Shown here one piece after another: positions 19,099 through 42,433 of a DNA stretch of 64,000 nucleotides (position 1 is the stretch's first letter; each line of letters begins with the position of its first letter). Below the pieces are notes generated by a model. It made no database searches. It was given only the letters and a program-made list of their open reading frames with translations, and had not been told where the DNA came from. Made by a program: the position numbers and the translations under genes. Source of the DNA: Neocallimastix lanati (nom. inval.) (taxonomy: Eukaryota; Neocallimastigomycota; Neocallimastigomycetes; Neocallimastigales; Neocallimastigaceae). The stretch spans positions 1,103,001 to 1,167,000 of the forward strand of contig JACVTC010000034.1 of NCBI GenBank assembly GCA_016946835.1. The letters are read 5' to 3'.

Positions 19099-19147
19099 AT
19101 TCTTTCGACTGTAGATAGTAGTATTTGTATACAATTTTATTTTAATT

Positions 19148-19467
19148 AACACCTTTGCCTCACAACCATAAAAAAAAACCGGCGGTGTTAATATAACAAA
19201 AAGGGAACAAGTAAACCCTTAAAAGAAAATTTTAAAACTATATATTTAATCTTAGACCTTCGGTGATCTAAGCGCATTAACCGTTGTTAACTCGTTTACT
19301 GCAACCTCACTCTGTTGAAGAGATATGGGATTAGATTACGTCTTTTATAGTAATCCTTTACGCAGTCTCTAACCAAATAGATTCGTCTAAACGAGTTGCA
19401 AATGAGCTTATTGAATACACTCACAAACAACGTATAACCGAGTATTCTAACACTCGTCCTAATAATT

Positions 19468-19468
<1 letters not shown>
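19148..19468 (-). ncRNA. structured 5' leader RNA of Gypsy-C, copy 1
   Basis: Three hairpins can be drawn. H2: AACACC+GCC / GGC+GGTGTT (19148-19189), with an apical loop reading TCACAACC-ATA-A-run-CC. H3: AAGGG/CCCTT (19201-19220). H1: CTTAGA/TCTAAG capped by CCTTCGG (19251-19272). The same three, in the same order and with 61 nt between H2 and H1, occur in the unrelated chromodomain element (42007-42130) with compensating stem changes. A further block, AACCAAAT-NN-ATTCGTC, is at 19371-19387, and a 10-bp arm pair AACTCGTTTA/TAAACGAGTT closes this part. The region lies between the primer-binding site and gag, flanked by long A-tracts on both sides. Packaging signal, IRES or a selfish RNA module are all possible. 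Confidence 0.6.

Positions 19469-19504
<36 letters not shown>
19469..19504 (-). repeat. A-tract in Gypsy-C leader, copy 1 (distal)
   Basis: T36 on the plus strand, between the structured leader and the primer-binding site. The matching tract in copy 2 is 25591-25626. Confidence 0.6.
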
Positions 19505-19507
<3 letters not shown>

Positions 19508-19564
19508 CTACTTAAATCTACTTGAATAATTAAAATAGATATAACTTACTCGTATAGGAGTTAT

Positions 19565-19582
19565 ATCACTCACTCTCCACCA
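19565..19582 (-). other. primer-binding site for tRNA-Trp, copy 1
   Basis: The plus strand reads ATCACTCACTCTCCACCA. This is exactly the last 15 nt of the tRNA-Trp gene at 29529-29600 plus the added CCA. In the element's sense it is TGGTGGAGAGTGAGTGAT, 2 nt inside the LTR. It primes minus-strand DNA synthesis. Confidence 0.9.
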
Positions 19583-19584
19583 AT

Positions 19585-20312
19585 TGACAAACGATTCTAT
19601 TATCTTAATTTGAAGTTATTACTTCAAAAGTGATAATAGATGTATCAAGTTTGATATAAAATTTAATATAAATGAATTTGTTTTATTATTATTAATAATT
19701 AAGTTATTATTATTCTAGCTTAACACTGAATTGTTATTAATTTTTCAAAATTATACATTTCTTTTGTGTTTAGAATTAATTTTTATTATTATATTTATTA
19801 ATTTTTATTATTATTTATTAATTTTTAGTAATATTTATTAATATAATATTTGGTTATTATTTTTTTATTACATTTCTAATAACAACGAGAAATTAATTTT
19901 ATAAAATATTTACAAGTATTTATATTTTTACAATAATTTAAAGTATTTACAATTTTTAATAATAAAACAATTAAGAATAATTATATTTATAAAAATAAAC
20001 AATAAAATAAACAAATAAACAATTAATACAAGAATTATTATAAACAAAGAATTCAAAATAATAAAAAAGAGAAAATTGTTTACAAACTATTTACTTTTAA
20101 TTAAAAAAAGAAATTAATTAACATTAGTATTTTATTATTTTAAAAATTAAAATAGAATTAAAGTATAATTTCGAGTTTTAGAATTTAATTAAAATAAATT
20201 TTTTTATTATGATTTTAATTTCAAATTTTAATTTATTAATTTGTTGTTGAATAGGTTAGATATTATTCAAGCTTTCTAATAATTTTATGCGTAAGAATTC
20301 CAATCTGTATCA
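19585..20312 (-). repeat. Gypsy-C central LTR shared by both copies
   Basis: 728 bp, serving as the 5' LTR of copy 1 and the 3' LTR of copy 2. It is like the outer-left LTR in length and in the CGTAAGAATTCC variant near its right end, and unlike the right LTR (CTTAAGAATTCC). Confidence 0.85.
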
Positions 20313-20324
20313 ATTCGTCGGCCC

Positions 20325-20528
20325 TTAAGAGATGACTTCGTCCCTTGAAGTCAAAGAATTTTCTTGAAGTACATATGGAAAAACATTTTTAATATGAACA
20401 TTTCTATTTAAGAGTTTTCCAGTAGTTGGATCTTCTAATACTAAGGTATTGAATTTTTGTTTATTAACAACTTTAAAAGGTCCGTAAAGGTAAGGATTTA
20501 ATTTACTTCTTCCTATAAGTCTTATCAT
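20325..20528 (-). CDS. Gypsy-C integrase C-terminal segment, copy 2
   Basis: 67 residues, identical to the copy at 14208-14411 (GPF-like module, no chromodomain). The conserved 3' hairpin overlaps its end at 20334-20352. It is part of an element counted as broken. Confidence 0.7.
   Translation of the reverse strand: MIRLIGRSKLNPYLYGPFKVVNKQKFNTLVLEDPTTGKLLNRNVHIKNVFPYVLQENSLTSRDEVIS
20334..20352 (-). other. conserved 3' hairpin (Gypsy-C copy 2)
   Basis: Same GACTTC-AAGGGAC-GAAGTC stem-loop, 21 nt from the central LTR. Confidence 0.65.
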
Positions 20529-20561
20529 TACGTAATCTCCTGGTTTATATGTCTTCTTTAG

Positions 20562-23500
20562 TTAATTTTGAAATCCAATACGGTGTTCCCAATATTTATT
20601 TGCATACTCTGAATATTCAGTAGCCTGTTTTACCCAATTTTGATGTCTTAAGAAACGTCGAAATATATATTCTTCTTCTGATTCATTTGGATCTTTATAA
20701 ATGTCAGGGAACATGACTTCTAATGGCCAAGTGTTGTGTCTGCCATAAAGTAATTCGAAACTACTAAATTTTGTTTTTGAATTTTTAGTAGTTCTTAAGG
20801 CCCATAAAGCCGATGGAAGATATTCATCCCATTCAGACTCATTTTCTACTAATAATCTTAATAACTTCCCTATTTCTTTGTTTCGATTCTCAATCATTCC
20901 ATTCGATTCTGGATGATGCGGGGAAACGTAATGAACCCATGAACCATAAAGGTCAATCATCATCTTTGTTATTTCAGAGATAAAGGAACTACCATTATCT
21001 GTAATTATTATTTCAGGTGGTCCATGTCTTGTAAGTATTTCAACAAGAAATTTTATTACTTCTTCGGATTTCATGTTCGGGATTGCTTTAGCTTCAACCC
21101 ACTTGGTAAAATAATCGACTAAAGTTATTATATAATTGTTACCATTTTTAGTAGTTGGTAACGGTCCTATTATATCGAGTCCTACTCTAGTAAATGGTTG
21201 TTCAACAGGGGTAGCATTATCTCCAGAACTTTTTGGAAATGGTTTAGGCCTGCATGTTTGACATTTGTGACAACTTTTTATCCACATTCTTACATCATTC
21301 CAAATGCCAGGCCAATAGTAAGATTGCATAATTCTATTAGTAGTTTTCTCTGCTCCTTCATGTCCTACTAAATGGGCACGATTAATAATATCCTTTTTGT
21401 CTTCATCTTTATAGATAACTTTTAAATAAAGATCATCTTTTTTGTAATATAGAGTATTATCAACAACTTGATAATTCTTAGTGAAGTATTTTATTATACC
21501 TTCTGGTAGATCCAAATCCCTTGGATTAAAGTCGGCTAATATTGCATTAGCGCATTGAATAATTCCTTTTGAATTTTTAGAAGGTAATCTTGATAACGCA
21601 TCAACGAATACATTTTTTTTTCCTTTCTCGTAAATAAGTTCAATCTTATATTTGTTAAATTCTTCTATCCATCTTGCATGACGATTAGAAGTAGGAATGC
21701 TTTTTTTGAAAAACCCAAGTAATGGTTTATGATCCGTAATAAATTTTGTTAAATTTTTATTACTTAATATATATTGACTAAAATATTTTAAACTAAATAT
21801 GACAGCTAATCCTTCTAAGTCCGTTACGTAGTAATTCTTTTCAGATGTAGAGAGTGTTCTACTTACGCAACAGATAGGATGTTCAAGACTATCCCCTTCC
21901 TTCTGTAAAAGAACACCACCAATATCTTTAAGAGAAGCATCAGTACGAATGATGAATTCCTTTTTAAAATCTGGGTAACTTAATATTGGATCATTAAGTA
22001 AACATTCTTTAATATTTTCGAAAGCTTCTTCGCATTCATTTGACCATATATATTTTGAATTCTTTTTTAATAACTTAAAAAGAGGGTCAGCAATAATTGA
22101 GAAATTTGGAATAAATTTTCTATAATAACTAGCTAAACCTAAAAAAGAACGAAGTTCACTTACATCTTTAGGATTGTCCCACAAAGCAATACTTTGTACT
22201 TTGGATGGAATTGTTTTTAATCCTTTTGATGTTAGAACATGACCTAATACTTCAACACTTTCTTGAAAGAATTTACATTTTTGTAAGTTAAGAGAAAGAT
22301 TGTATTTAGAAAATATTTCAAAAGCTAACTTTAAATGTTTAAGATGTTCATCAAGGGTTCTTGAATAAATTACAATATCATCTAAGTAAACAAATAAACA
22401 TTTACCGATCAAAGGAAGTAATATTCTATTCATCTCCCGTTGGAAGGTAGCGGGAGCATTGGTAAGGCCAAATGGCATTACTTTAAAATTGTAATTGCCG
22501 AATTTTGTGGTAAATGCTGTTTTCTCTATATCTTCTGGATTCATTGGAATTTGATGATATCCAGAATATAAGTCTAATGCGGAGAATACTGTTGCACCAT
22601 TTACTGAATAAATTAGTTCATCTATAAATGGTAGTGCGTAAGAATCTTTTATAGTAATTTCATTTAATTTGCGATAATCAATACACATTCTCCATTTCCC
22701 ATTTTTCTTTTGAACTAATAGAACAGGAAAAGACCATGGAGAATGTGAAGGAACTATAAGTCCTTTTTCTAATAATTTAATTATTTCCGATTTAAGAATA
22801 TCTGCATGCTCTTTTGATAATTTGTATGGTTTTAATTTTATAGGTTTATTACTAATTGTCACAATTGAATGTGGTTCTAAATTAGCTGTACTTAATTGTG
22901 ACATTGAAGTTGCCATACAGTTTTTATACTTCTCAATTAAATTTTTAAATTCTGTCTTAAATTTTTCCGGGACAGAATCAATAATTTTATTTAAGGTATC
23001 GATGAACTCTTGTTGTTCATCTTTTTCTATAATAATGGAATTAACAAGAGGTATTTCTGATTTACTATTAATTATATAGGTTACTTGTTTAATTCCTTTC
23101 TTAATTTTCTGGTAGACAGCATCATCATCTGGATCTATATACAAACGATACTTTTTCTGAATTCCTCTACCAAATATAATTTCAAAATATGGATTCGTAT
23201 AATTAATTACATAGAATTTTTCTGTAATAGTTAATCTATTATTTACGTTTATTTTTAATTCAATGTAACTATTTGTAGTTACTTTAGTACCATCCACAAT
23301 GGTAATATCTTCTAAATTTTCACATTGTTTAATTACTTTATGTTTTAGTTTGCCTAGACAATTATTTGTTATAACATTATAGTTTTCACCGGTATCGTAT
23401 AAGATTTTAAATGTTTTATTATCTATTTCACCACAAATAATAGGAAGACTTGTATTAGTTAAGGAACAAAGGATTTTCTCAACTCTTGGTTTACAACCTT

Positions 23501-23747
23501 GTTCAAGTTCTTTTCTAATGGACGGGCTTGCAGATAATAATTGAGATAAACTAATTTTTGGAAATAGGTTATTAGCTTCTTCAGTTATACTAAACTTTTC
23601 ATTTTCATTTAACATTTGGATATTGGTCATTTTTCTTTTCTTAATAGTTTTTGATTTTTCTGATTCTTTTTCATTATTACTTTCAGTATATGAGGCTCCA
23701 CTAATCTCATTTTCATTACTATTTTCTTCTTCATTAACTTCCATCAC
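20562..23747 (-). CDS. pol: Gypsy-C Pol, copy 2
   Basis: 1061 residues, reading the same as copy 1 over its whole length: protease DTG, RT with YLDD, RNase H, integrase HHCC and DDE core. No difference between the two copies is seen in pol. The few differences lie toward gag and the leader (near 24060, 24160, 24200, 24870, 24980 and 25275). This pattern dates the duplication as recent. Confidence 0.85.
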   Translation of the reverse strand: MMEVNEEENSNENEISGASYTESNNEKESEKSKTIKKRKMTNIQMLNENEKFSITEEANNLFPKISLSQLLSASPSIRKELEQGCKPRVEKILCSLTNTSLPIICGEIDNKTFKILYDTGENYNVITNNCLGKLKHKVIKQCENLEDITIVDGTKVTTNSYIELKINVNNRLTITEKFYVINYTNPYFEIIFGRGIQKKYRLYIDPDDDAVYQKIKKGIKQVTYIINSKSEIPLVNSIIIEKDEQQEFIDTLNKIIDSVPEKFKTEFKNLIEKYKNCMATSMSQLSTANLEPHSIVTISNKPIKLKPYKLSKEHADILKSEIIKLLEKGLIVPSHSPWSFPVLLVQKKNGKWRMCIDYRKLNEITIKDSYALPFIDELIYSVNGATVFSALDLYSGYHQIPMNPEDIEKTAFTTKFGNYNFKVMPFGLTNAPATFQREMNRILLPLIGKCLFVYLDDIVIYSRTLDEHLKHLKLAFEIFSKYNLSLNLQKCKFFQESVEVLGHVLTSKGLKTIPSKVQSIALWDNPKDVSELRSFLGLASYYRKFIPNFSIIADPLFKLLKKNSKYIWSNECEEAFENIKECLLNDPILSYPDFKKEFIIRTDASLKDIGGVLLQKEGDSLEHPICCVSRTLSTSEKNYYVTDLEGLAVIFSLKYFSQYILSNKNLTKFITDHKPLLGFFKKSIPTSNRHARWIEEFNKYKIELIYEKGKKNVFVDALSRLPSKNSKGIIQCANAILADFNPRDLDLPEGIIKYFTKNYQVVDNTLYYKKDDLYLKVIYKDEDKKDIINRAHLVGHEGAEKTTNRIMQSYYWPGIWNDVRMWIKSCHKCQTCRPKPFPKSSGDNATPVEQPFTRVGLDIIGPLPTTKNGNNYIITLVDYFTKWVEAKAIPNMKSEEVIKFLVEILTRHGPPEIIITDNGSSFISEITKMMIDLYGSWVHYVSPHHPESNGMIENRNKEIGKLLRLLVENESEWDEYLPSALWALRTTKNSKTKFSSFELLYGRHNTWPLEVMFPDIYKDPNESEEEYIFRRFLRHQNWVKQATEYSEYANKYWEHRIGFQN

Positions 23748-24062
23748 TATATCATCACTAGTATTTGGTTCATTTTCTTCAGAATTGCTAAGCTTTCTTC
23801 TTCTAGCATCTTTAATTACTTTCTTTTGTTGTTTTACTAATTTTGTTTTGGGTTCACTTAATAATGAAGGCTTTACTATAGATTTGTTATTTAATTTTTT
23901 TGTCGAAGTTTTTCTCTTTTGTACTGTACCGATAAAGTTTGAAGAATTTCCTTCAATATTACTTTCTTCTTTAGTGAAATTTTCTTTGTCATTTTCACTT
24001 CTTTCGAAATTATTTTCATTTTCATTTTCATTTTCATTTTCATTTGCAATTTTAATTGTCTT

Positions 24063-24080
24063 GGGAGATTGCGTACTCCC
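24063..24080 (-). other. hairpin between gag and pol, Gypsy-C copy 2
   Basis: Same GGGAG/CTCCC stem-loop as in copy 1. A neighbouring base differs (C in copy 1, T here) without touching the stem. Confidence 0.35.
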
Positions 24081-24169
24081 GATTATTAATTTAAATGGCT
24101 TTCGTCGTTTTCAGGGCAATCATTCATTTTGTGACCAATTCGTTTACATTGTACACAAAAATTTATTTT

Positions 24170-25054
24170 TTATTGTTCTAATTTTTTTGTAATGTCATCT
24201 AAATCTTCTATTGTTGATTGAGGGTACCTTAAAGTGTTCATTCTATGTTCTATTCCTTTGTTTATTTCTTCTCTTGATTGCATTTTATACCTATTATTTC
24301 TAATATTGTTATTATAGGTATCATTATTTTTATTTTTATTATCGTAATGATTATAATTATTATTATTGTTGTTATATTGCTTATTATTCGATCTAGAATT
24401 TGAAGTTGAAAAATAATCATTTCTGTAATTATAATTGTTATAATTATTATTATAATTTTTAGATTCATTGAAATCTTTTATTTCTTTCTTGTTAACTCCG
24501 TGTAATTTTTTATATTTATTTTTATTTTCTTCCATTAAAGCAATAATTTTTCCTTTCTTGGATGTTATTTTCATTGCATCCTGAAGTGAGGTTGGTTCCT
24601 CTTCTAATAAGGCTTCATAAATTTTACCCCAATTCTTAAAAGCATTAATATAATATGAAGTGATAACTTGGTCACTAATTTCTAAATTCACTTGATTACA
24701 TAGGGTATTGAATCTTACATCAAATTCAGAGATTCTTTCCCCCTTTTTAATAGTGACTGTAGATAATTCTAATAATCTGGTATTTTTAGAGGTAGAGACT
24801 CTGAAATGTCCTCTTAATTTATTTATTATAGTTTTGTAACTATCTGGTGCTTCTTTGTTTAATGAATTGAATACAATGGTTCTCGCTATATCTGTAGTTA
24901 AGGAGATTAAGTATTCAATTTTATCTTCTTCTTCTTCTATTTTATTAGCTTTACACCAGCGTTCATACGAAAAATGCCATTCCTCGAAGGAAACCTTATC
25001 CTTCCCTAATATAGGTAACCTATTAAAGGTTATTGCCTTGGTTGAATTTTCCAT
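24170..25054 (-). CDS. gag: Gypsy-C Gag, copy 2
   Basis: 294 residues, the same architecture as copy 1 (capsid-like domain, then Asn/Tyr-rich tail). It differs at about three residues: E for K near 24, V for E near 61, D for N near 285. These are the only coding differences seen between the two copies. Confidence 0.8.
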   Translation of the reverse strand: MENSTKAITFNRLPILGKDKVSFEEWHFSYERWCKANKIEEEEDKIEYLISLTTDIARTIVFNSLNKEAPDSYKTIINKLRGHFRVSTSKNTRLLELSTVTIKKGERISEFDVRFNTLCNQVNLEISDQVITSYYINAFKNWGKIYEALLEEEPTSLQDAMKITSKKGKIIALMEENKNKYKKLHGVNKKEIKDFNESKNYNNNYNNYNYRNDYFSTSNSRSNNKQYNNNNNNYNHYDNKNKNNDTYNNNIRNNRYKMQSREEINKGIEHRMNTLRYPQSTIEDLDDITKKLEQ

Positions 25055-25186
25055 TATTATTATTATTTTATTTATAAATTTTAAAAGAAACCTTACAATT
25101 TATATTTTCGCTTATCTTAATTTATGAATTTATGAATTATTTTACTTATTTCATTTTATTTATTCTTGCAAAAAGAAAAAAAAAAA

Positions 25187-25212
25187 ATTTTTTTTTTTTT
25201 TTTTTTTTTTTT
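25187..25212 (-). repeat. A-tract in Gypsy-C leader, copy 2 (proximal)
   Basis: T26 on the plus strand, three shorter than in copy 1. Such length change is expected for homopolymers. Confidence 0.6.
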
Positions 25213-25270
25213 CTTTTAATTATTCTTTCGACTGTAGATAGTAGTATTTGTATACAATTTTATTTTAATT

Positions 25271-25589
25271 AACGCCTTTGCCTCACAACCAAAAAAAAAA
25301 CCGGCGGTGTTAATATAACAAAAAGGGAACAAGTAAACCCTTAAAAGAAAATTTTAAAACTATATATTTAATCTTAGACCTTCGGTGATCTAAGCGCATT
25401 AACCGTTGTTAACTCGTTTACTGCAACCTCACTCTGTTGAAGAGATATGGGATTAGATTACGTCTTTTATAGTAATCCTTTACGCAGTCTCTAACCAAAT
25501 AGATTCGTCTAAACGAGTTGCAAATGAGCTTATTGAATACACTCACAAACAACGTATAACCGAGTATTCTAACACTCGTCCTAATAATT

Positions 25590-25590
<1 letters not shown>
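25271..25590 (-). ncRNA. structured 5' leader RNA of Gypsy-C, copy 2
   Basis: The same three hairpins: H2 25271-25311 (one A-T pair now G-T, AACGCC/GGTGTT, so pairing is kept), H3 AAGGG/CCCTT, and H1 25373-25394 with the CCTTCGG cap. The 61-nt H2-H1 spacing is retained. Confidence 0.6.

Positions 25591-25626
<36 letters not shown>
25591..25626 (-). repeat. A-tract in Gypsy-C leader, copy 2 (distal)
   Basis: T36 on the plus strand, between the leader and the primer-binding site. Confidence 0.6.
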
Positions 25627-25629
<3 letters not shown>

Positions 25630-25686
25630 CTACTTAAATCTACTTGAATAATTAAAATAGATATAACTTACTCGTATAGGAGTTAT

Positions 25687-25704
25687 ATCACTCACTCTCC
25701 ACCA
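25687..25704 (-). other. primer-binding site for tRNA-Trp, copy 2
   Basis: Identical 18-nt match to the 3' end of tRNA-Trp plus CCA, 2 nt inside the right LTR. Confidence 0.9.
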
Positions 25705-25706
25705 AT

Positions 25707-26457
25707 TGACAAACGATTCTATTATCTTAATTTGAAGTTATTACTTCAAAAGTGATAATAGATGTATCAAGTTTGATATAAAATTTAATATAAATGAATT
25801 TGTTTTATTATTATTAATAATTAAGTTATTATTATTCTAGCTTAACACTGAATTGTTATTAATTTTTCAAAATTATACATTTCTTTTGTGTTTAGAATTA
25901 ATTTTTATTATTATTTATTAATTTTTATTATTATTTATTAATTTTTATTATTATTTATTACTTTTTATTATTATTTATTAATATAATATTTGGTTATTAT
26001 TTTTTTTATTACATTTCTAATAACAACGAGAAATTAATTTTATAAAATATTTACAAGTATTTATATTTTTACAATAATTTAAAGTATTTACAATTTTTAA
26101 TAATAAAACAATTAAGAATAATTATATTTATAAAAATAAACAATAAAATAAACAAATAAACAATTAATACAAGAATTATTATAAACAAAGAATTCAAAAT
26201 AATAAAAAAAAAAGAGAAAATTGTTTACGAACTATTTACTTTTAATTAAAAAGAGAAATTAATTAACATTAGTATTTCATTATTTTAAAAATTAAAATAG
26301 AATTAGAGTATAATTTCGAGTTTTAGAATTTAATTAAAATAAATTTTTTTATTATGATTTTAATTTCAAATTTTAATTTATTAATTTGTTGTTGAATAGG
26401 TTAGATATTATTCAAGCTTTCTAATAATTTTATGCTTAAGAATTCCAATCTGTATCA
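25707..26457 (-). repeat. Gypsy-C outer 5' LTR
   Basis: 751 bp, TGACAAACG...CTGTATCA. It carries extra TTATTATTTATTAATTTT units relative to the other two LTRs and scattered substitutions. Confidence 0.85.
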
Positions 26458-26460
26458 AAA

Positions 26461-27334
26461 TGTAAGAATCTATAATTATTTGTTAGCAAATAATTATATT
26501 TTCTTAGTTAAGTTATTATAACTATAACTTTATTTAATTACATATAATATTTATTAAATTTATTTAATTTAATTTTAAATATTCATTAATTTAACAAAAT
26601 TTATTTAATTAATTTTAAATAATATATTTACAATATGCCAAATTCTCTACTGTAACTAATGTATTTTGTATTGTATTCTGTATTTTATAATGTATTCTGT
26701 ATTTTATAATGTATTCTGTATTTTATTAACTATTTAATTTTATATTTTTAATATAAGGATAAATTATATGATCGAAATATCTTTTATTATTTTATTCTTT
26801 TATTTTCGATCATTAGATTGGAAAATCGGTTAATTAAGATTTTTTCCAATTACTTTTTAGAAGTAATCGGTTTTACTTAATTAATGCGATGATCGATATG
26901 GATAGAATATCGATCGAAAACTTATCTAGGTTTTTCTATCTAATCTTTTCCTAGATAAGAGATTTGTTAAGATTAGAAAACCCTTTCTTATTTAACCTTA
27001 TTTTAATAAAAAAATATAAATAAGGCTCTTGAGTTCTCTTTGAGAAATCAAGAGTTATTATTATAAAAAACATAGTTATAATAGTAACATTTTTATATTT
27101 TTAACTTTAATAAATTAATAAAAATATTTTATTCAAAAACATATTTTTAAGATCAATTTATACAAACAATTCTTCTCTTACATTTTGTGTTATTATTATA
27201 ATTAATTTTATAATAAACTCTACATTAAAGGTAAAAAAAAATTTATTTTATTTTATTTTCTCAACTTAATGAATTAGTCGTTAAGTTGTAGTTAATAATT
27301 CTATTTTGAGTTAGTTCTTAATAGAATTATTACA
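26461..27334 (+). mobile_element. solo LTR, family B (copy B2)
   Basis: 874 bp, TGTAAGAATC...GAATTATTACA, with perfect CAAAA duplications at 26456-26460 and 27335-27339. It shares the inverted repeats and TATA region with B1. The left duplication overlaps the terminal CA of Gypsy-C. Confidence 0.8.
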
Positions 27335-27340
27335 CAAAAA

Positions 27341-28533
27341 TGTTGAGGTTCATATTAGAAAAGGAGTGTGAGCATTAATTAAATAGATAAATTAAATAAT
27401 TACTAAATTACACTAAAAGAATTTATTATTACACATTATAAATTTTATTTAAAGAACTATTATTAAAAATATTTATTATTTATAAATTATATAATTATTT
27501 TATTGTTAAAAATAACTTTATTAATATTAAAATTTATTATTATAACAATATGGGAAACCTTTCAATTCTTATTCCTATTTCATTATCACTACTATTTCTA
27601 CTATTTCTTTTCTCAGAAAGGCCCCCCTCATAAAATAATATGGATAATACATATTTTATATTATTTAATTACATTATTAAAACCAATCATATAAATTAAT
27701 TAATTACATAAATTTAATATTTAAAATAATAAAATATAACCAATATAAAAATTATTAATATAGAATATAAGAAAATTATTAATAGTAAAGAATATAATAA
27801 TATATTTTTATATAATAAATTTGTCAAAGTTTTAAGATAATTTGGTCTTAACGATTAGGTCAAGATGCCAAATTATAGTAATTAATTAATAACTTAATTT
27901 TACTCTTATTTAAAACATATTGTTATTAGTAAATTTAATAATTAAGTTTTTTATTTAAAATATAAATTTTATTTAATCTTAATAATATTTTATTACATTA
28001 TTATTTTATATAATTATTACTATAATTTAAATTACAATAATCCTACAAAGGATTAATCAAAAGAATTTAAACATGTATTTATATAAAATAATTAATTATT
28101 AAAATATTAATCATTAATATGAATATGTAAATAATATTAATATAAGTTTGATATTGATAATATAAAGTTAGATAATAATATAAATATTTAATATAAATAA
28201 AATATAAGAATCAAATATTGCTAAATATTATAATTTATAATTAAAATATAATATGTAGAAATTAATTTAATATGACAATCACGTGTTTACATTATTTAAT
28301 ATATATTAAATTCAATATATTAATAATATTTAGTAATTAGTTGGCCTAGACTAATTCCTAAATATTTTAATAAAGTTAATTTAATAATAATTATTATATT
28401 ATTATTATTTATTAACATTGAAATTCAAATAACTGAATTATCGAAATTGAAATTGAATTGAAATTCAGTTATTATCTTAACAAAATTATTAAAAATTTAA
28501 TTAAAAATATCATTATTATTCTATTCTTTATCA
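27341..28533. mobile_element. solo LTR (TGTTGAGG...TTTATCA)
   Basis: 1193 bp. The left flank is AAAAA (27336-27340). With E2 removed, the right flank is also AAAAA, followed by TTCAGC and the tRNA gene. About 27832-28400 is the inverted counterpart of 1-560. No real gene is present; a small frame at 27503-27694 is low-complexity. Confidence 0.65.
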
Positions 28534-28536
28534 AAA

Positions 28537-29512: not shown

Positions 29513-29528
29513 CAAAAAATTCAGCTAA

Positions 29529-29600: not shown

Positions 29601-29606
29601 TTTTTT
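29601..29606 (+). terminator. Pol III T-run terminator
   Basis: Six T's directly after the tRNA-Trp discriminator base. Confidence 0.85.
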
Positions 29607-30430: not shown

Positions 30431-30484
30431 TTTTTTTCTTTTTTTATTTATTTATTTATTTATTTATTTATTTTGATTTATTTA

Positions 30485-32647: not shown

Positions 32648-32656
32648 ATAATAATA

Positions 32657-32716
<60 letters not shown>
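32648..32716. repeat. (ATT)n microsatellite
   Basis: About 23 trinucleotide units, nearly perfect. Confidence 0.85.
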
Positions 32717-32718
<2 letters not shown>

Positions 32719-33021
32719 GCTAAATAAAAATTTCAAAAAAAAAAAAAAAAAAAAAAAAGGTTTTTTTTAATATTTATTTAAAATTCTAACAAAAATTTTT
32801 TTTTTTACAGCCGCAACTATTCAAACTTTAATTTTTATTTATTTATTCATTTATTAATTACATGAATATTCTTTATTTAAAAAAATACACAATTTACAAT
32901 TAATAGAATAAATAAATATTATTTTATCCAATTAGAACATAATAAAATTTTTAAATTGTAACGTGAACAATAAAAAGTTAATATTCAAAAAATAAAATGT
33001 AATAAATAAATTCAGAAAAAA

Positions 33022-33153
33022 AGTTCATAGGCAACGAAACCTTACTTCCATATTACTAGGGTTTGAATTGATTATATTGAAAGAATTTATGGTCTTCTTT
33101 TTCAGAGGCATTGACCCTGCTAGTCTGTCTTAATGAATTTTCAGCTTTGATGG

Positions 33154-33208
<55 letters not shown>
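33022..33208 (+). other. GC-richer island ending in a 52-base poly(A)
   Basis: About 135 bp of more complex sequence (TTCATAGGCAACGAAACC ... CAGCTTTGATGGTCT) ends directly in about 52 A's (33157-33208). It looks like a retroposed RNA copy or short SINE-like unit with tail. No ORF or known RNA fold is recognised, and no clear target duplication was found. Confidence 0.35.
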
Positions 33209-33210
<2 letters not shown>

Positions 33211-33672
33211 AGAAAATGTATTAAAAATTTTAAAGTTAAATAATTTAATTTATTTATTAAATTAAAAAAATCTAGATTTTTCGTATAATATAAATAAAAT
33301 AGATAATACATATGTAAATAAATATAAAAAGATATGAACACATAAACTCATACAGACTCTATTTATTATATTTTAGTGTTATTTTGTTATTTGTTTTTGA
33401 TGTTAGCATTGACAAAATCTATTATAGATTTATTGATTTAAAAAAAAGTTAATTAATATTACTTTTCTGATAATTTTTTTTTTTTTTTTTTTAACGACCG
33501 TAGCAGGATTTCTCACTTTTTTGATAAATTAAAAGAGTATTTATTATTTTTCTGATACATTAAAAGAAAAAAAGAAATTAAAAAATAATTAAAAATTAAT
33601 AAAATTTTTTATTATTACGCCAAGTAAAAACTTTTTTAAAAAAAAAGATTTTTCTTTAATATTTAAATAATG

Positions 33673-33675
33673 TAT

Positions 33676-33726
<51 letters not shown>

Positions 33727-33727
33727 T
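33673..33727. repeat. (ATTT)n microsatellite
   Basis: About 14 perfect tetranucleotide units. A (AATAT)n run follows at about 33793-33830. Confidence 0.85.
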
Positions 33728-33983
33728 TGTTACTTAATGTTTTTTAAATAGTAAAAATTTTTTTAAATTATTTATTAAAAGAATTAAAAAAATATAATAT
33801 AATATAATATAATATAATATAATATATATATTATATTAATATATTAATGCCATAAATTGACAAAAAAAATTTTTTAATCCGTTTTACCAAAAATAAAAAT
33901 TATAAAAAGAATTAAATATAAACAATCATCTTGGAATTCTATATATTAATTATTATTAAATAAAGTTTATTCCTAGTCAAAAA

Positions 33984-34014
<31 letters not shown>

Positions 34015-34314
34015 AATTAAAGTTTTTGTATTGATTATTAAAATATTTTTATATTAATTAAAGTTTCCATCTGCTTTTTTTTTTTTTTTTTTTGTAATAG
34101 GTCAAATAAAAATTCACATAAAATTTTTTAATAAGATTTAATTTATTAATTAATAGAAAAAAGTACAACAACATAATCTTCAAAAATATAATAAATTAAA
34201 TTTTTTTTTTTTGAAACTAAATATATTGAATAGTTTTATTTTATTTTATTTTATTTGCTTTATATATATATATAAAATACTTATTTATTATTTATTAATA
34301 AATACTCTTTTTAT

Positions 34315-34550
34315 TATTTATTATTTATTATTTATTATTTATTATTTATTATTTATTATTTATTATTTATTAATAAATACTCTTTTTATTATTTATTATT
34401 ATTTATTATTTATTATTCAATTATTATTATTCAATTATTATTATTCAATTATTATTATTCAATTATTTATTATTTGTTATTTATTAATATATACTCTTTT
34501 TATTATTTATTATTATTTATTATTTATTATTTATTATTTATTATTTAATT
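34315..34550. repeat. (ATTATTT)n and related heptamer arrays
   Basis: Two blocks of ATTATTT-type units with interspersed AATTATTATTC units. They are contiguous with the next array. Confidence 0.75.
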
Positions 34551-34552
34551 AT

Positions 34553-34671
34553 TGATTATTGATTATTGATTATTGATTATTGATTATTGATTATTGATTA
34601 TTGATTATTGATTATTGATTATTGATTATTGATTATTGATTATTGATTATTGATTATTGATTATTGATTAT
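34553..34671. repeat. (TGATTAT)17 heptamer array
   Basis: A near-perfect 7-bp tandem repeat of about 17 units, distinct from the neighbouring ATTATTT array by one base per unit. Confidence 0.85.
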
Positions 34672-34746
34672 TTATTATTTATTATTTAAAAATATTGTAA
34701 ATCATAAAAAAAAAGAAAAAGAAATTTAGAATATGTGCCATATTTA

Positions 34747-36185
34747 TTAAAAACATATTAAAATTGAATAACTTATTGAAGCATAAGCATATTTGACATG
34801 AATTGGCTTTTTAGTACTATTTTCATCTTTCTGAAGTAAAACGCCTTCAATACCATCGAAAGAAGCATCCGTTCTGATTATAAATTGTTTTTCAAAGTCA
34901 GGCATAACAAGAATAGGAGCAGATGCTAATTTTAATTTCAACTCATTAAAGCTTTCTTCTTGTTCTTTACCCCAAACAAATTTTACTCCTTTTTTTACAA
35001 GTTTAAATAATGGTTTTGCGATATTAGCGAAGTTAAGAATAAATAATTTACGATAATAACCCACTGCACCAAGGAAAGATTGTAATTGTGTAACATTTTT
35101 TGGTGGTATCCATTCTAATATTACTTGAACTTTAGCTTGAATAGTGGAAATACCATTAATTGATAATGTATGTCCTAATAATTCGACTTTTATTTAAAAA
35201 AGTGACATTTTTCTAAGTTTATTTTTAATCCATTTTCTTTAATAATATCAAGCACTTTCTTAATATCTTTAATATGTTGTTCAATGGAGGGTGAAAATAA
35301 AACTAGATCATCGATATAAACAAACATGCATACTCCAATAAGAGGAAAGAATTTTCTGTTCATTTCCCTTTGAAAAGTACCTGGGGCATTGCATAAACCA
35401 AAGGGCATAACTAAGAATTGATAGTTACCATACATTGTAGCAAAGCTAGTTTTAGGAATATCTTCTTTGTTCATGGGGATCTGATAAAATCCCGAAAATA
35501 AATCAATCGTAGTAAAAACTTTAACCTTTTTCCCAATAGAAAATAAAATTTCATCTATAAGCGGTAATGAATATGCATCTTTAATAGTAAGATTGTTTAG
35601 TTTTCGATAATCCATACATATTCTCCACTGTTTATTTTTCTTAGGCACTAAAATAACGGGAGAAGACCAAGGGGAGTGTGATGGTTCAATTAATTTATTT
35701 TTGATAAGTTTTTCTAATTCCTTTTTAAGAGCTAATGCTTGAACTTTAGAAAGTCGATAGCATCTCTGTTTATTCGGTTTAACATTAGGCTCGAGTTGAA
35801 TACTATGAGGTAACAATTTAGTTAGTTTCAATTCATCAATTTCTGTGGCAAGAATGGTATTATATTCATCAAATAACCTTTTTACTTCATTTCTTGGCTT
35901 TTTCGATATTTCTTTAAGTATTTTTTGAAGAAGTTGATCTTTTTCAATAACACCATTTTCATTAATAATATCTACTTCTTTAGTTATTGTTTTAGAGTCT
36001 TCTATTTTGTTTAGAGTTGTTGTTAAGTTATTATTAATATTATCAATTTCATTAACAAAGCAATAAAGATAGGAATTATTATTAATATCAGAATTTGTTT
36101 TATCATATATAATTATTGATTCCGCATCTTCATCATCACTAATAACATTTCCTTTCTCTTCTTTGCAAAGATTTGAAACACGCAT
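34747..36185 (-). pseudogene. Gypsy pol remnant (RT and RNase H)
   Basis: Minus-strand relic of a Gypsy pol. Open segments at 35190-36185 and 34747-35064 show RT (KQWRICMDYRKLNNLTIKDA, VMPFGLCNAPGTFQREMN, MFVYIDDLVLFS) and the start of RNase H (FIIRTDASFDGIEGVLLQ). It is closest in style to Gypsy-A and Gypsy-K. It is broken (two or more breaks), has no LTRs of its own, and is bounded by simple repeats on one side and LTR-H sequence on the other. It is older than the chromodomain element beside it. Confidence 0.85.
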
Positions 36186-36226
36186 CCATTTGTTATTTTT
36201 TATTAATTTAGTTGGTCGTTTCTCTA

Positions 36227-36870
36227 TGTAACGGAGGTGCTTCTATTGTAAAGGCGGGATGAGATATAGAAACACAGAAAGGAGAAAACTCAATAGGTTT
36301 ACACTATCTGTATAAATAATTCGTTTTATTAGAAATATTTTTTATTAATTATAAAATTTAAAATAATTATTAATATTAATCAACAAGGTAATATTTCGAA
36401 TTACTTATACGTTAATTATTATTAATAAAAGCACGAAGAAAAATATTTTCATTCGTGAAGTTCGCACTATTTATACTTTTAACGGAAAAACAGTTTTAAC
36501 ATGTAAAAATAATTTTAAAGAAATATTTAGAAATATGTTTGTAATAATTAATAATGTAAAGTTTCTAGAATATAGATTTTAATTGATGAAAATGAATCTT
36601 ATCAAAAAAGAATAAAATAATTTATATAATAAGAATTTCTAAATTCATTTCGGTTAAATTACAAACCGAAAGAATCTTTAACTTTCTATAATTTTATACA
36701 GAAAGAATATTCAAGAAGATATTATTAATAATTAATAAAATAATTAATAAAATAATTATTTATGCAAAATGGGTTGAGGTGTGAGTCGAACCCATGAAGT
36801 ATTGGTCATGGTCAGTATAACTAACCATTGAACCAAAGTTCTAATTTTACTAACTGAAGATTTCGTTACA
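36227..36870 (-). repeat. chromodomain element 3' LTR
   Basis: 644 bp. The inner side reads, on the minus strand, CCTGGAGGCGGACCA just before the LTR, taken as the polypurine tract. Confidence 0.9.
36766..36842 (-). other. tRNA-like Pol III unit in 3' LTR
   Basis: On the minus strand an A box TGGTTCAATGG (36825-36835) fits the consensus fully. A B box GGTTCGACTCA (36782-36792) fits 10 of 11. They are 32 nt apart, as in tRNA genes, and a T4 terminator follows at 36766-36769. The cloverleaf is degenerate: the acceptor arms do not pair, and the anticodon and T stems have mismatches. It is therefore a tRNA-derived promoter and not a working tRNA. It lies about 28 nt from the LTR's 5' edge, in U3. 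Confidence 0.5.
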
Positions 36871-37198
36871 TGGTCCGCCTCCAGGATTCGGATACCAGAC
36901 GAATCTAACAGTTAGGCATAACTTATACTAAAATTAAGCAAACTAAACTAAACTAAACTAAATTAAAATAAAATAAAATATAATAAAATAAAAATAATTA
37001 ATTAACCATTTTATAGTACGAACTTTTTTGAATAAAATTACATGATATTAATAAAGTTACATGAATATAATATATAATAAGAATACATGAATATTAATAA
37101 TATTTAATAATATAAAATAATATTTAGTAATATTGATATTAATAAATTAATATAAGTTTGATATTAATAAAGTAAAGATTCATTTTCAAGTTTTAATT

Positions 37199-40100
37199 TT
37201 AGTTATTTTTGTTAAATTCTTTTAAGAGTTTAGAGCAATTTAAATTTTCTTCGGGTTCCCAAGATGCTTCAGATAAAGGATAACCTTTCCATTTAATAAG
37301 ATATTGGGTTTTGCCATAATGTTTCCTTTTATCAAGAATTTTTTCAACTTCGTATTCTTCTTCATTGTCAATAATTATCGGTGGTGGTGGTTCTTTCTTT
37401 CGTCCAAAGTGATCTTCATAAAATGGTTCAAGTTCAGAAACATGTATTACAGGATGGATTCTGATTTCTTTTGGTAAGTCTAACTTATATGAAACGGGAG
37501 AAATTTTCTTAATGATTTTATATGGACCAAGTTTTCTAGGTTTAAGTTTTTTATTTCCATTATGGATTATAAGTGAACTATTAATCCACACTTTATCACC
37601 AGGTTTAAAATTTGGAGCTTCAATACGATGTTTGTTTGCAAATTCTTCTTGCTTTTTTCTTGCTTGTTGTAAATTTCCATTAAGTGTTTTAAATAATTCT
37701 GAAAGGTCTTTTGTAAATTCATCAGCTCTAGGAACATCTGTACTGTTTGGAATTGATGGTGAATATCTTGGATTATATCCATAGTTTGCATAAAAAGGTG
37801 AGTGCTTAATTGATTCTTGAATTGAATTATTATAACTGAATTCTGCTAGGAATAAAAAATTATACCAATCAGAACCTTTAAAGTTTGAATAACATCTTAA
37901 GTATTGTTCAATAACGGAGTTCACCCTCTCCGTTAAACCATTGGTTTGGTGATGGAAGGGAGAAGCAAGTTTCGTTGTGATATTGAAAGATTTACAAATA
38001 GCTGACCAAAATTTTGAAGTGAATTGAGAACCTCTATCAGAAATGATTTCGGAAGGAAGTCCATGAATACGAAAAATATTGTTCATAAAAGCCGAAGCCG
38101 TATCAGCAGCAGAGGGTACTTTAGGGAACGGAATAAAATGACTCATTTTAGTAAATCTGTCTGTGACAACAAAGATACAAGTGTAACCATTAGAAACGGG
38201 AAGATCAGTAATAAAATCCATTGAAATAGAAATCCAGGGTTTACAAGGAATGTCCAGAGGATTAAGAAAACCGTAAGGCTTATGTCTAGAGTCTTTAGAG
38301 CGGGAACAGACATCACAAGAACGGATATAGTCTTTAACATCAGATTGCAAGGAAGGCCACCAGAAATCACGATTAATTAGATTAATAGTTTTCTTTATAC
38401 CAAAGTGTCCAGCAGAAGGGGAATCATGACAAATATTAAGAATAGAAGATCTACAATTTGGAGGAACATAAATTTTATTTTTGAATAAAAGAAAGCTGTT
38501 GCTAATTGAGAAATCATTAAGTTTAGAGGGTATTTCTTGGTATTCTGAATTAAGTTGATTGTATGTGTCAGAGTAGGATTCATCATTTTTGTATTCTTGA
38601 AGAATTTGATCATTAAGAGAAGAAACAAGAGTTGCGACAGCACAAAAGTTTTCGGGACGAAGAACTGTGAATGGAATATCAGATGATGGGTCATCATTAT
38701 TAGAAGCATAATCTGGTCTTCTGGATAAAGCGTCAGGTTTACCATTATTTGATCCGGAGCGGTAAACAATTTTGAAGTTAAATTCAGAAAGAAATAAAGC
38801 CCAACGAACCAAACGTTGAGTCATCTTTTCTGGTTTCTTTTGATAAAGTAGGTTGCGATGATCTGAAAAAACGGTGAAAGGCGTGTCGGTTCCTTTAAGA
38901 AGGTGTCTCCAGTGTTCAAGTGCATCGACTATAGCTAAAAGTTCTTTATCATATATGGGATAGTTTCTTTCAGCAGAATTAAGGGATCTAGAGAAGAAAG
39001 CAACTGGATGAATTTTATTATCTTTAGGAGTAGTTTGGGATAAGATTGCACCTATGGCGAAATTACTACTGTCAGTTTCAACCATGAAAGGAAGTTCGCG
39101 ATTAGGATAGACAAGAATAGGAGCAGAAGAAAATTTTGATTTGATGTTATCGAATGCGATTTGAGTTTCAGTAGACCAATTAAATTTAGAGTTTTTCTTT
39201 AGTAAGCAATGAAGAGGATGAGCAATAGATGCAAAGCTAGGAATAAATCGTCGATAATAATTCGCTAGTCCGAGAAATGATTGTAATTCTTTTATATTTT
39301 TAGGAATAGGCCATTCTAAAATGGAAGAAACTTTTTTAGGGTCCATAAATATTCCATCTGAAGAAATTCTGTGACCAAGGAAGTCCAGGAATGGTACGCA
39401 AAATTCACATTTTTCCAATTTTGCATATAAACCAGCTTTTCTTAGTCTTTTTAAAACTTCAATAAGATGTTGAAAGTGAGTATCCATGTCAGGAGAAAAG
39501 ATAATTATATCATCAATATAGCAATAAACGAAAGAACCAATAATGTCTTCAAATATGTCATTAATGAAATGTTGAAAAACCGCTGGAGCATTTTTTAGTC
39601 CAAAAGGCATGACTAGATACTCATAGTGACCATATTTGCATGTGAATGCTGTTTTATATTCGTCACCTTCTTTGATCCTTATCAAATTATATGCTGAACG
39701 TAGATCTAATTTTGAGAAGACTTTACCATTACTAAGATTTTCTAACATATCATTAATTAGTGGAAGAGGGTATGAATCACGGATGGTGACTTCGTTTAAA
39801 GGTCGATAGTCTACAACTAGCCTAAGATCATTCACGTCTTTCTTAGGAACAAAGAAAACAGAAGCAGCAGCTGGAGATTTAGATTTTCTAATAAATTTTT
39901 TGTTTTCATTTTCTTTAATATATTTCTTTAAGACTAGAGATTCTTTTTCAGTTAGGGGATAAATTGGGCCATAATGAAGTTTTGCATTTTGCTTAAGTTT
40001 AATCTCGCAATCATAAGGACGATGAGGAGGTAATTCATTAGCGGATTTTTCGTTAAAAACATCCTTGAATGGAATAAGCTGTGTTGGTAATAATTCTTGA

Positions 40101-41386
40101 ATATCAGTATCTTTAAGTTTTTCGTCTTCAGTGGTTAAGGTTTCATTTTCAGAAATATGGGTAGTAAAGGAATTAGGAATGATTAAACAATTTTCAATAC
40201 AATGATTGGAATTGAATCTTAAAACTTTATTTTTGAAGTCAATGTCGAGATTGTGAGTAGAAATCCATTCGAAACCTAAAATAGCACAATAAGAAGGAAG
40301 GTCAACCACATAGAATTGAGTTTTACATTTGTGATTTTTATAAGTGATGGAAATAGGAAGAGTTTTACCAAGAATAGTTTGCTTTCCACCGATGCCAGAT
40401 ACCTTAGGGAAATTAGTTTTAGTTGAATACGGGATATTATTTTCTTTAATATAGTAGATATCCATTAAATTGATTTGAGAACCAGTATCGAGAAGAATTT
40501 TAGCAGTAGAATTTGTATTATCAATACTCAAAGAAAATTCGTAAATAGGAAGATTTGAGTTAGAAACTCTAGGTCTAGAAATAGGTTTTGATTCGGGATT
40601 AGAAACATAAGTGCTACTTGATGAAGGTTTATTTTTATTTTTATATTTATTTTTAAGTGGACAATTGTCGAGAGAATGTTCAGAGGATCCACAATACAAA
40701 CAAAGATTTTCTCTTCTTCTTCTTTCTTTTTCTTCTTGAGATAGAGGTCCATGAGGTTTGGATTTAAATTGCTTTTGGAAAAAGAATGATTTTTTGCTCT
40801 TTTTATTTTTATTATTATTACTATTATTTGAATTTTGACCTTGAAGATTGGAGAATTGTCTATGAGTAGAAATACGATTATCGATTCTAGATGCAATTGT
40901 TTGCATAGCAAGGAGGGTTTGAGGTCCAGGAAACATTTCTAAAATTCTAGTAGCAATATGGTCATGTAGACCGGCAAGAAAGGCGTCCATCTTGGCTTCT
41001 TCATTCCAAGAAGATTCATCGGCGTATTTATTAAATTCTAAAATATAATTTCTGACTTCACCAATTCGTTTTTGTTTGATTGTTCTTAATTTCTGGTTGG
41101 CAATAAAGGTAGAGTCGTAGCTTCCAAATACTGTTTTTAATCTAGCAATGAATTGATTATAATTAAGGAGACAAGGATCTTGGTTTTCAATAAGGGTAGC
41201 AGCCCAATTCATGGCGTTTCCATACAAACGAGAAATGATATAGATTACTTTAGCTTCATCGTTTGCAAATCTTTCCGGTTGAATCATAAAAATAAGTTCC
41301 ATTTTAGCTAGAAATCCTTTAAAGAATCGACGATCACCAGCAAAACCGTCCTTTAAAGTAGGATTTTCTTGATAATAGTTGTCCAT
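37199..41386 (-). CDS. Gag-Pol polyprotein with C-terminal chromodomain
   Basis: 1395 residues in one frame. Gag: capsid-like domain ([30 protein letters not shown]) and a zinc knuckle [14 protein letters not shown] near 230. Protease [11 protein letters not shown] near 300. [48 protein letters not shown]. RNase [17 protein letters not shown]. Integrase: HHCC ([14 protein letters not shown]...CDVCSRSK), core [34 protein letters not shown]-like [14 protein letters not shown], then a chromodomain ([35 protein letters not shown]). The chromodomain directs integration to marked chromatin in known chromoviruses. A single gag-pol frame means no frameshift is needed, as in Tf1-type elements. No disruption is seen. 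Confidence 0.95.
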
Positions 41387-42433
41387 ATTAAAATAAATAA
41401 GGTAAAGTAGAATAAGTTTTCAAAGGTAAAGAATAGGCGGTAGAATCCAGAAGTTCCCAAAGTGGTAGTAGAGATTCCAATAATCCAAAAGGTAGATAGG
41501 TAGTAGAGATTCCAGAAGTTCAAAAGTTGTTTATTGGTAGGTTTCCAAGGTTAATGGATAAGAACACAAAATTTTAATAACACTTTATAATATTTTATAA
41601 TTGAATATTTTTATTTTATAATTATTTATCAAAAATTACTGAAATATAAACTAGATTATATAGTATTGGACCAACTAAATATATAATCTATCAAAGTTTT
41701 ATACGATAAGTTCCTTTAGCCTTTTAGTGATAACGCAGATAAAATCGATTGTTAATGTCTTATAGACAAAAGGAAGTAATATTGTTAGATTCTTTATTAT
41801 GTCTAACTTATTGTTAGCTGAAAAGAATAAAACAAATTATTTTCCCCTATATCAATAGTATCTGAACACTAAAATGTTACGAAAACAGAGACCAACTTCT
41901 GTCGCTTTGGAAGTCGTATAAACCTTATATTTATATTTTAATCTTTGTTTTCTTAATTATAAAATTATAATATTAATTATAAAATTATTAATTGATAAAA
42001 TAGAATAGTACTATTGACTCACAACTATAGAAAAAACCGTCAGTACTATTATAACTAGTGCCGCGAGTAAGCACGAAATAAAATTTTAAAATACTATATA
42101 ATTTTAATCTTACGCCTTCGGTGACGTAAGCTCCTTATTCGCCAGAGTTGTTGCAAACCTAGAACCGTTTTCCTTTATAATAGGCTACGGTGCTCTCTTA
42201 TAGAGTTTTACCTAGTCTAGAACCAAATCTATTCGTCGAGTGCAACACTAAAGAAGACAATTCTTCTAACTCTGTATATGAGCTCTATTCGCTCGTATAA
42301 ACGCTTTTTTTAAATAATTAAATAAAAAATAAAATTGAACAAGTTTTTCTTGCTATTATTTCAAGCAAGTAATTTATTAAAATAATTAAAAATAAAAAAT
42401 TATTATTACAATTATTAATATTATTATTATTAT

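Follow-up and report, generated by a model that had tools for sequence, protein, structure and literature searches.

A Conserved Branched RNA Domain in the gag Leaders of Ty3/Gypsy Retrotransposon Lineages of Neocallimastix lanati

A Structured RNA Ahead of gag

Can distantly related long terminal repeat (LTR) retrotransposons of a gut fungus share one structured RNA in their leaders, and what would such an RNA be for? The question is raised by a 64,000-nt stretch of the Neocallimastix lanati genome (contig JACVTC010000034.1), called the window below, which contains two copies of a Ty3/Gypsy element, Gypsy-C (C), and one chromodomain Gypsy element (D). The first-pass annotation reported covarying hairpins in their leaders at 19148-19272, 25271-25394, and 42007-42130. 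All of them are present in the sequence, as are the 61-nt gap between the first and third hairpins (19190-19250 in C copy 1 and 42048-42108 in D) and the block AACCAAAT-NN-ATTCGTC at 19371-19387 and 42221-42237. The covarying RNA is indeed common to the leaders of distantly related Gypsy elements; the pol sequences of C and D are 31% identical. The three hairpins attributed to two lineages are real, but they are only the 3' part of a larger branched domain, which was placed in six lineages of Ty3/Gypsy elements: two in the window (C and D) and four elsewhere in the genome (E, F, G, and H).

Two points of the annotation had to be corrected. The orientation first written has to be reverse-complemented to obtain the RNA, since gag and pol are encoded on the minus strand. 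A U-G pair inside hairpin P3, found in 18 of the 26 distinct aligned rows, pairs only in the minus sense. The window had also been credited with three independent sequences; there are really two, since both C copies are near-identical tandem duplicates and are counted once.

The domain spans ~190-240 nt of the gag leader on the minus strand (gag sense), between the LTR and gag. In the RNA sense, it consists of hairpin Pz, a short A/U linker, the closing helix P0, hairpin Pa, arm P1, a linker, and hairpin P3. Arm P1 encloses GACGAA, hairpin P2, and helix P1b, and the 3' strands of P1 and P0 directly abut. Two covariance models are used below: R1 was built from C, D, and E, and R2 from C and D only. 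The parts of the RNA in the window are listed here; Pz and P0 in C copy 1 were placed by sequence, folding, and cross-lineage pairing.

19251..19456, minus strand: domain of Gypsy-C copy 1, from Pz to the end of P3 (R1/R2 match 19251-19387)
25373..25578, minus strand: domain of Gypsy-C copy 2 (R1 match 25373-25509; end set by the offset from copy 1)
42109..42294, minus strand: domain of element D, from Pz to the end of P3 (R1/R2 match 42109-42237)
19251..19272, minus strand: P3 hairpin of C copy 1, CUUAGAUC[ACCGAA]GGUCUAAG
42109..42130, minus strand: P3 hairpin of D, CUUACGUC[ACCGAA]GGCGUAAG
19371..19387, minus strand: GACGAA and the first part of the P2 hairpin UCUA[UUUGGU]UAGA in C
42221..42237, minus strand: GACGAA and the first part of the P2 hairpin UAGA[UUUGGU]UCUA in D
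19148..19219, minus strand: hairpins P5 (19148-19189) and P4 (19202-19219), downstream of P3 in C copy 1
42007..42074, minus strand: hairpins P5 (42007-42047) and P4 (42058-42074), downstream of P3 in D

P3 has the form CUUANNNN[ACCGAA]NNNNUAAG, and the loop ACCGAA recurs in all six lineages. The most constant parts of the domain are the P3 stem ends, this hexaloop, and some single-stranded blocks; the linker between P0 and P3 is GGCGAAUAAGGAGC in both D and E. The helices differ from lineage to lineage. P1 is AACUCGUUU/AAACGAGUU in C, GUUGCA/UGCAAC in D, UUGGAAAGU/ACUUUCCAA in E, UCGAUCUUG/CAAGAUCGA in F (locus L105), UUUGGUUGU/ACAAUCGAA in G (L109), and UGUGGA/UCCACA in H (L112). P0 is CGUUGUU/AACAACG in C, CAGAGUU/AACUCUG in D, CAGUGUU/AGCACUG in F, and CUGAGUU/GACUCAG in H. 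Pz is seen in C, D, E, and H and was not identified in F. The fold of the H copy in L077 contains Pz, P0, a P2-like hairpin, and P3. In C, E, G, and H (L001, L060, L077), the two P1b strands enclose a block UUCAACA, which sometimes tips a small hairpin.

Helices Maintained Through Changes on Both Sides

That this is a conserved structured RNA is well supported by compensatory changes exceeding shuffled and slid controls. Seventeen pairs were counted over 28 matches (26 distinct rows) in an alignment fitted to the model, in which P2 and P1b of the F and H rows are not truly in register. In these rows, 95.2% of cells are paired, against 69.6% in shuffled and 30-45% in slid controls, and the covariation score of 0.650 compares with 0.171 after shuffling and a maximum of 0.081 after sliding. 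Changes on both sides were observed in 14 of the 17 pairs. None of 500 shuffles was as high on any measure. The paired stem changes first described between C and D hold, except that, read in the RNA sense, one P5 pair is broken in C copy 2 (AACGCC for AACACC, plus strand).

The same is seen with one sequence per lineage. P1 forms 36 of 36 pairs, a score reached by the true pairing only among 720 permutations. The value for P2 is 20/20 (1 of 120 permutations), those for P1b and upper P3 are 16/16 each (1 of 24 permutations each), and that for P0 is 41/42 (6 of 720). F was left out for P2, as its P2 has three pairs, and G and H for P1b; P1 of H was taken from L112, since L077 has only five pairs. 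When matched strands are compared with strands combined across families, pairing is 0.92 versus 0.38 for P1, 0.94 versus 0.48 for P2, 0.92 versus 0.64 for P1b, 0.88 versus 0.78 for P0, and 0.96 versus 0.87 for all of P3. These computations show that P0, P1, P2, P1b, and upper P3 are kept through changes on both sides. RNAalifold, unaided and with four rows, recovers P2, P1b, and P3, and single-sequence folding of C and D gives Pz, P0, P1, and P3 at 0.91-0.99.

A general kissing contact between P2 and P3 was considered, as their loops are complementary at 6 of 6 positions, with one G-U, in C, D, and E. It is contradicted by the other P2 loops in G, F, and H, and by UUUAGU together with an unchanged P3 loop in L026 and L062. 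In F, the Pa loop GGUGA(U) is complementary to UCACC of P3; by eye, the change in L106 is compensatory and the pairing is broken in L105. Such Pa-P3 pairing in F is an idea only.

Homologs in the Genome

Genome searches covered the 199-Mb, 762-contig assembly (window at positions 1103001-1167000; 22% G+C). The covariance-model search for homologs, proposed in the first-pass annotation, recovered further lineages. R1 matches exactly three places in the window (E-values 1.3e-25 to 2.4e-24). R2, which was run on 18 sources, has its best chance match at 0.053 (L099). It finds E in 4 of 4 loci (~1.3e-14), G in 3 of 4 (4.5e-9, 1.8e-8, and 2.5e-6), and F in 8 of 8 (1e-5 to 0.0049). C copy 2 is absent from the matches of this larger run, but searched alone it scores the same as copy 1, so its absence is an effect of the search. 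With R1, G is found in 4 of 4 loci (4.5e-15 to 2.2e-5) and F in 10 of 10 (2e-6 to 3.4e-4; five of them via P3 and linker only; chance match L099 0.038). R1 finds H at 6.5e-5, 5.6e-4, and 0.0038. H was first noticed when R1 matched the flank of L077 (6.7e-4).

The genome holds more than 500 matches (430 + 40 + 6 + ~76), most of them not individually read. The P2-region pattern has 430 exact matches, against none for the reversed control; the first 100 of the 430 include 73 of E, 21 of D, and 6 of C. The P3 pattern gives 513 matches at up to three mismatches, against 51 for its control. There are 27 matches to the C leader, 40 scored matches among 422 first-look candidates for D, 40 long matches and 44 first-look candidates for F, and 6 matches for G. 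The altered upper P3 stem pattern of H has 77 matches (control 0); of four such places looked at, three are leader RNA and L113 is not. Copies inside each lineage are near-identical. Among loci found by DNA similarity, the exact P3 10-mer is kept in 25 of 27 for C and 30 of 30 for D.

Other variants of the patterns gave little. The P3 loop with a different outer stem has 46 genome matches, against 44 for the control, dominated by one stemless repeated sequence, and a pattern with an altered P2 closing pair has none. In viral contigs, neither the P3 nor the linker pattern has a match, and two protein scans found no relative. In other genome contigs, the P3 pattern has two matches, one in a spirochaete contig (L099) and the other in a fungal-looking contig with lineage F (L100). 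We take the spirochaete hairpin for a chance match (0.038-0.053). L100 (SUTQ01000043.1) is filed in a Methanosphaera stadtmanae metagenome-assembled genome and carries a fungal-type Gypsy element of lineage F; it is apparently contamination of that genome.

The leader RNA matches no Rfam family, in agreement with the earlier statement that no named family has this shape. With Rfam 15 at the gathering threshold, only a tRNA was found in the window. With relaxed E-values, the C, D, and E leaders have only matches far below the cut-off, and six F, G, and H loci have none.

Several observations weigh against a single domain common to six lineages. As the copies are near-identical within each lineage, there are about six independent sequences, of which those of E and G resemble each other closely. 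Because the patterns that first led to E, F, and G hold the P3 loop constant, and the model and later pattern behind H include it, a lineage with another P3 loop would have been missed; changed P3 loops do occur in L104, L106, L107, L108, and L025. R2 misses the G locus L108, and its matches to F cover only the 3' part of the model. On H, R2 is unconvincing: L112 (0.012) and L111 (0.021) are matched via P3 alone, the copy in L077 is not among the matches listed, and the scores are no better than that of the chance hairpin L099 (0.053). Membership of H is thus based on R1, P0 and P1 recognized by eye, and the gag context, and not convincingly on R2. The segments of the permutation test were picked by eye. 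The outer P3 stem, CUUA/UAAG, hardly varies, so no covariation comes from it. In single-sequence folds, P1b is improbable in C, D, E, and F (0-0.17), P0 and P1 of E reach 0.37 and 0.34, and G has 0.00 for P1 and 0.20 for P3. The energy z-scores are -3.3 for C, -4.7 for E, and -3.8 and -4.3 for F, and they are weak for D (-1.6) and G (-1.1).

Boundaries, Position, and Distribution

Local alignment scores of pairs among C, D, E, and F were compared with 200 shuffles that keep the local composition. For the core, none or one of the 200 shuffles is as high in all six pairs, while P4/P5 exceed the shuffles only for C-D. The flanks of C-D score no better than chance (194 and 165 of the 200 shuffles reach their scores), whereas its core and P4/P5 are above all 200 shuffles; the even similarity outside the hairpins that the first-pass annotation had named as a sign of simple recent copying is thus not seen. 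Because the C-D similarity stops at the domain and P4/P5, it is not due to recent copying. Far flanks are unremarkable for C-D, C-E, D-E, and D-F. A weak excess was observed in the flanks of C-F (3 and 6 of 200 shuffles as high) and in the 5' flank of E-F (4 of 200).

The exact P3 motif occurs 88 times in L001-L087, and removal of six duplicates leaves 82 distinct places. A same-sense gag lies downstream in 79 of them, at a family-specific distance; the other three places end 71-72 nt after the P3 loop. The distance from P3 to gag is 271-334 nt in C, 702-710 nt in D, 926-1053 nt in E, and 362 nt in F. In one H copy, gag is ~600 nt downstream. On the genomic RNA, the domain is between the primer-binding region and gag in C and D, whose LTR ends are known, and in E and F, whose LTR ends are inferred. 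Its distance from the LTR is 128 nt in C, whose leader is ~650 nt long, and 957 nt in D, whose leader is ~1.87 kb long.

The Gag proteins of the carriers are partly related. C Gag aligns with E Gag (24% identity, 8e-7), and H Gag aligns with the Gags of E (46% identity) and F. A direct comparison of C and F Gags gives an E-value of 0.47. D Gag, of the Ty3_capsid type, shows no similarity to C or F Gag (2.4 and 0.32).

Not every Gypsy element gives a match. In the window, R1 has no match in the Gypsy elements at 6261-9644 and 50024-54430; with filters off, the best values are 0.16 in 9500-11500 and 0.78 in 54200-58500, the leader of the 50024-54430 element not being delimited. The element at 6261-9644 is 50% identical to C over 620 aa, and that at 50024-54430 is 41% and 46% identical in two stretches. 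A reverse transcriptase tree with 13 rows intermingles C and F with these two elements and sets D apart in a chromodomain group. Carriers constitute one side of a branch in none of 200 bootstrap trees. Just one change is required by the well-supported branches, a result equalled by shuffled labels. The patchy distribution may reflect either loss of the RNA or its exchange between elements.

Elements in the Window and Their Priming

The genes and repeats that delimit the leaders are as follows.

18053..18937, minus strand: gag of Gypsy-C copy 1, without a Pfam match, named by its position and by Gag similarity to E
18937 to 19585, minus strand: leader of Gypsy-C copy 1, from the LTR end at 19585 to gag at 18937
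37199..41386, minus strand: gag-pol of element D, with Ty3-type capsid, reverse transcriptase, RNase H, integrase, and chromodomain
36227-36870 and 43252-43895: LTRs of element D

The two Gypsy-C copies, at 13468-26457, are a tandem with common LTRs (LTR-internal-LTR-internal-LTR). Their ungapped LTR stretches are 98-100% alike, apart from one at 83%. Proteins related to that of element D occur in Orpinomyces as well as on metagenome contigs. An inverted repeat of ~600 nt (43896-44506 and 55615-56225) adjoins the end of the D LTR, as though D had integrated at, or within, a copy of a different element.

The lineages seem to differ in priming. Tf1 is a self-primed LTR element. In D, the sequence following the LTR, ATAAAAGCAC (43242-43251), is complementary at 10 of 10 positions to the LTR stretch GTGCTTTTAT (~43450-43459), which sits ~40 nt after a TATAAATA box. 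By this complementarity, D looks self-primed like Tf1. TGGTGGAGA is found directly after the LTR in C (19560-19584) and at the inferred LTR end in E (L060, RNA-sense ~1079). In form, it resembles a tRNA-primed site, and C and E may use the same tRNA primer.

Possible Function of the Domain

AUG triplets are scarce in the leaders. Between P3 and gag, D has none, against 11.2 expected from base shuffling, F has none against 3.2, and the three E copies have one each against 17.7-18.0; C has two against 5.3, which is not significant. Between the LTR and Pz, the counts are 1 versus 9.9 in D, 0 versus 2.6 in C, and 2 versus 4.4 in F (not significant). In D and E, AUG counts are also below those of every other ordering of the same three bases. 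Under a null model that preserves neighbours, the scarcity holds in the flanks of D (1 versus 7.4 and 0 versus 7.8) and is not significant in the core of D or in the segments of C. The D leader as a whole (41386-43251) has one AUG in ~1.87 kb, and an E copy (L060:532-1516) has one in ~1 kb from the RNA to gag. Upstream of the E domain, six AUGs fall within 600 nt, against 8.2-9.1 expected; four of the six precede a TATA-like box, so that this region is partly untranscribed. The E leader in L060 also contains, at a site between the domain and gag (RNA-sense 2100-2330), tandem repeats of a short hairpin-like unit, AAGTTGTCGATAAAGATTTCGAACTT.

The scarcity of AUG fits scanning through the leader and is indirect evidence against internal entry, which leaves a role of the full-length RNA outside translation. 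The reading that we prefer, with slightly less than even confidence, is that the domain may be a cis-acting tag on the full-length element RNA, for export, sorting, or packaging, read through P3. P0 and P1, with their abutting 3' strands, would stack and form a scaffold on which P3 is presented. P3 would then be bound by a factor able to read the same loop in all lineages, whether this is a protein or RNA of the host or a set of Gags that share descent. The bound factor would mark the full-length transcript for its tasks outside translation, be it export, sorting, or packaging into particles. Ribosomes, for their part, seem to travel along the leader to gag and not to enter at the domain. The least certain step is that the reader is a host factor rather than Gag, and it is weakened by the Gag similarity among C, E, F, and H. 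It is also conceivable, if rather unlikely, that P0-P1-P3 is a portable module whose nearly fixed hexaloop is read by one gut-fungus host factor and which was swapped between the self-primed chromodomain lineage and the apparently tRNA-primed lineages.

The strongest competitor, somewhat unlikely in our view, is a packaging and dimerization signal like retroviral psi, read in each lineage by its own Gag and conserved since these Gags share descent. Its position between the primer-binding region and gag and the detectable similarity linking the C, E, F, and H Gags agree with this, and packaging signals of Ty1 are within 580 nt of the 5' end, although the packaging structures of Ty1 and Ty3 are not clearly defined (excerpts of PMC4974528). 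However, D keeps the P3 loop with a Gag that resembles neither C nor F Gag, C and F Gags themselves compare at 0.47, no self-complementary loop for the start of a dimer is seen by eye, and Gypsy elements without a match are present in the same window. Internal ribosome entry, or a shunt, would let ribosomes reach gag past the long leader, and the domain does precede gag in long leaders (~650 nt in C and ~1.87 kb in D). The 600 nt upstream of the E domain are not poor in AUGs (6 versus 8.2-9.1), but four of the six precede the TATA-like box. In D, both the domain itself and the leader on either side of it have few AUGs (upstream 1 versus 9.9, inside 0 versus 3.7, downstream 0 versus 11.2), as scanning from the 5' end would require, and the distance from P3 to gag varies from 271 to 1053 nt. 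We regard ribosome entry or shunting as improbable.

Three further explanations have very little probability. A self-cleaving ribozyme would suit a compact, branched RNA with conserved single-stranded blocks, and other LTR elements, the retrozymes, are known to carry ribozymes. No ribozyme family is among the Rfam matches, relaxed E-values included, in the window, the C, D, and E leaders, or the six F, G, and H loci, and cleavage in the middle of the leader would part the 5' end of the transcript from gag-pol; a ribozyme is very improbable. Slightly less probable still, and largely contradicted already, is the view that leader DNA without a function was simply inherited in common or recently copied. 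Near-identical copies in each lineage, long exact stretches shared by D and E around P3, and the weak flank excess for C-F and E-F (3, 6, and 4 of 200 shuffles as high) point that way. The similarity nevertheless ends at the domain for C-D, C-E, D-E, and D-F, and helices changed on both sides are not given by drift. We give the lowest probability to a conserved short upstream peptide, Leu-x-Ser/Ile-Pro-Lys-x-stop, running through P3 in C, D, E, F, G, and H. By eye, its frame ends at the same UAA in each lineage, but the core of D and of three E copies has no AUG, the changes are paired and not synonymous, and 4-nt indels occur upstream among the F copies.

Relation to Known Systems and Significance

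Retroviral psi and the dimer initiation site are structured RNAs with a conserved apical loop, between the primer-binding site and gag. The leader domain is likewise a structure on the genomic RNA between these two sites. It differs in having one loop common to several lineages, including D with its unrelated Gag, and no palindromic loop by eye. Constitutive transport elements (CTEs) are read by a host export receptor. Like CTEs and other RNA transport elements, the domain may be an RNA module open to gain by a lineage. The CTE of SERV-K1 was gained by recombination and sits between env and the 3' LTR, according to excerpts of PMC11379458; the leader domain is in the 5' leader instead and is likened to it by description only. 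The Ty1 5' pseudoknot and the Ty3 5' palindromes are known structures (excerpts of PMC4974528 and PMC11381356) and, like the domain, are cis-acting structures close to the 5' end of the RNA in a fungal LTR retrotransposon. Whereas the Ty1 pseudoknot involves the first nucleotides of the transcript, the domain is an internal, closed, branched unit. Retrozymes are LTR elements bearing hammerheads (excerpts of PMC4918200 and PMC9695139) and also have a small RNA fold inside an LTR retroelement. Their hammerheads sit in the LTRs, and the leader domain matches neither a hammerhead nor another ribozyme.

Among the open-licence papers listed, no title or start of an abstract gives an account of the leader RNA. 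It is not described in the excerpts of PMC4974528, PMC11381356, PMC11379458, and PMC10224137. PMC5640933, on fungal structured RNAs, contains none of five terms for gut-fungus genera or transposons.

Even in yeast, the packaging sequences and structures of Ty1 and Ty3 are not clearly defined (excerpts of PMC4974528). In N. lanati, the divergent natural versions define the helices, a nearly fixed loop, and a boundary, and they are direct variants for testing. The presence of the domain in the self-primed D and in apparently tRNA-primed lineages separates its role from priming, and its sharing with the unrelated Gag of D raises the question of what reads it. We infer a function as a tag of the full-length RNA. 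If the portable module were true, distant retroelements would use the same host route via the same RNA key.

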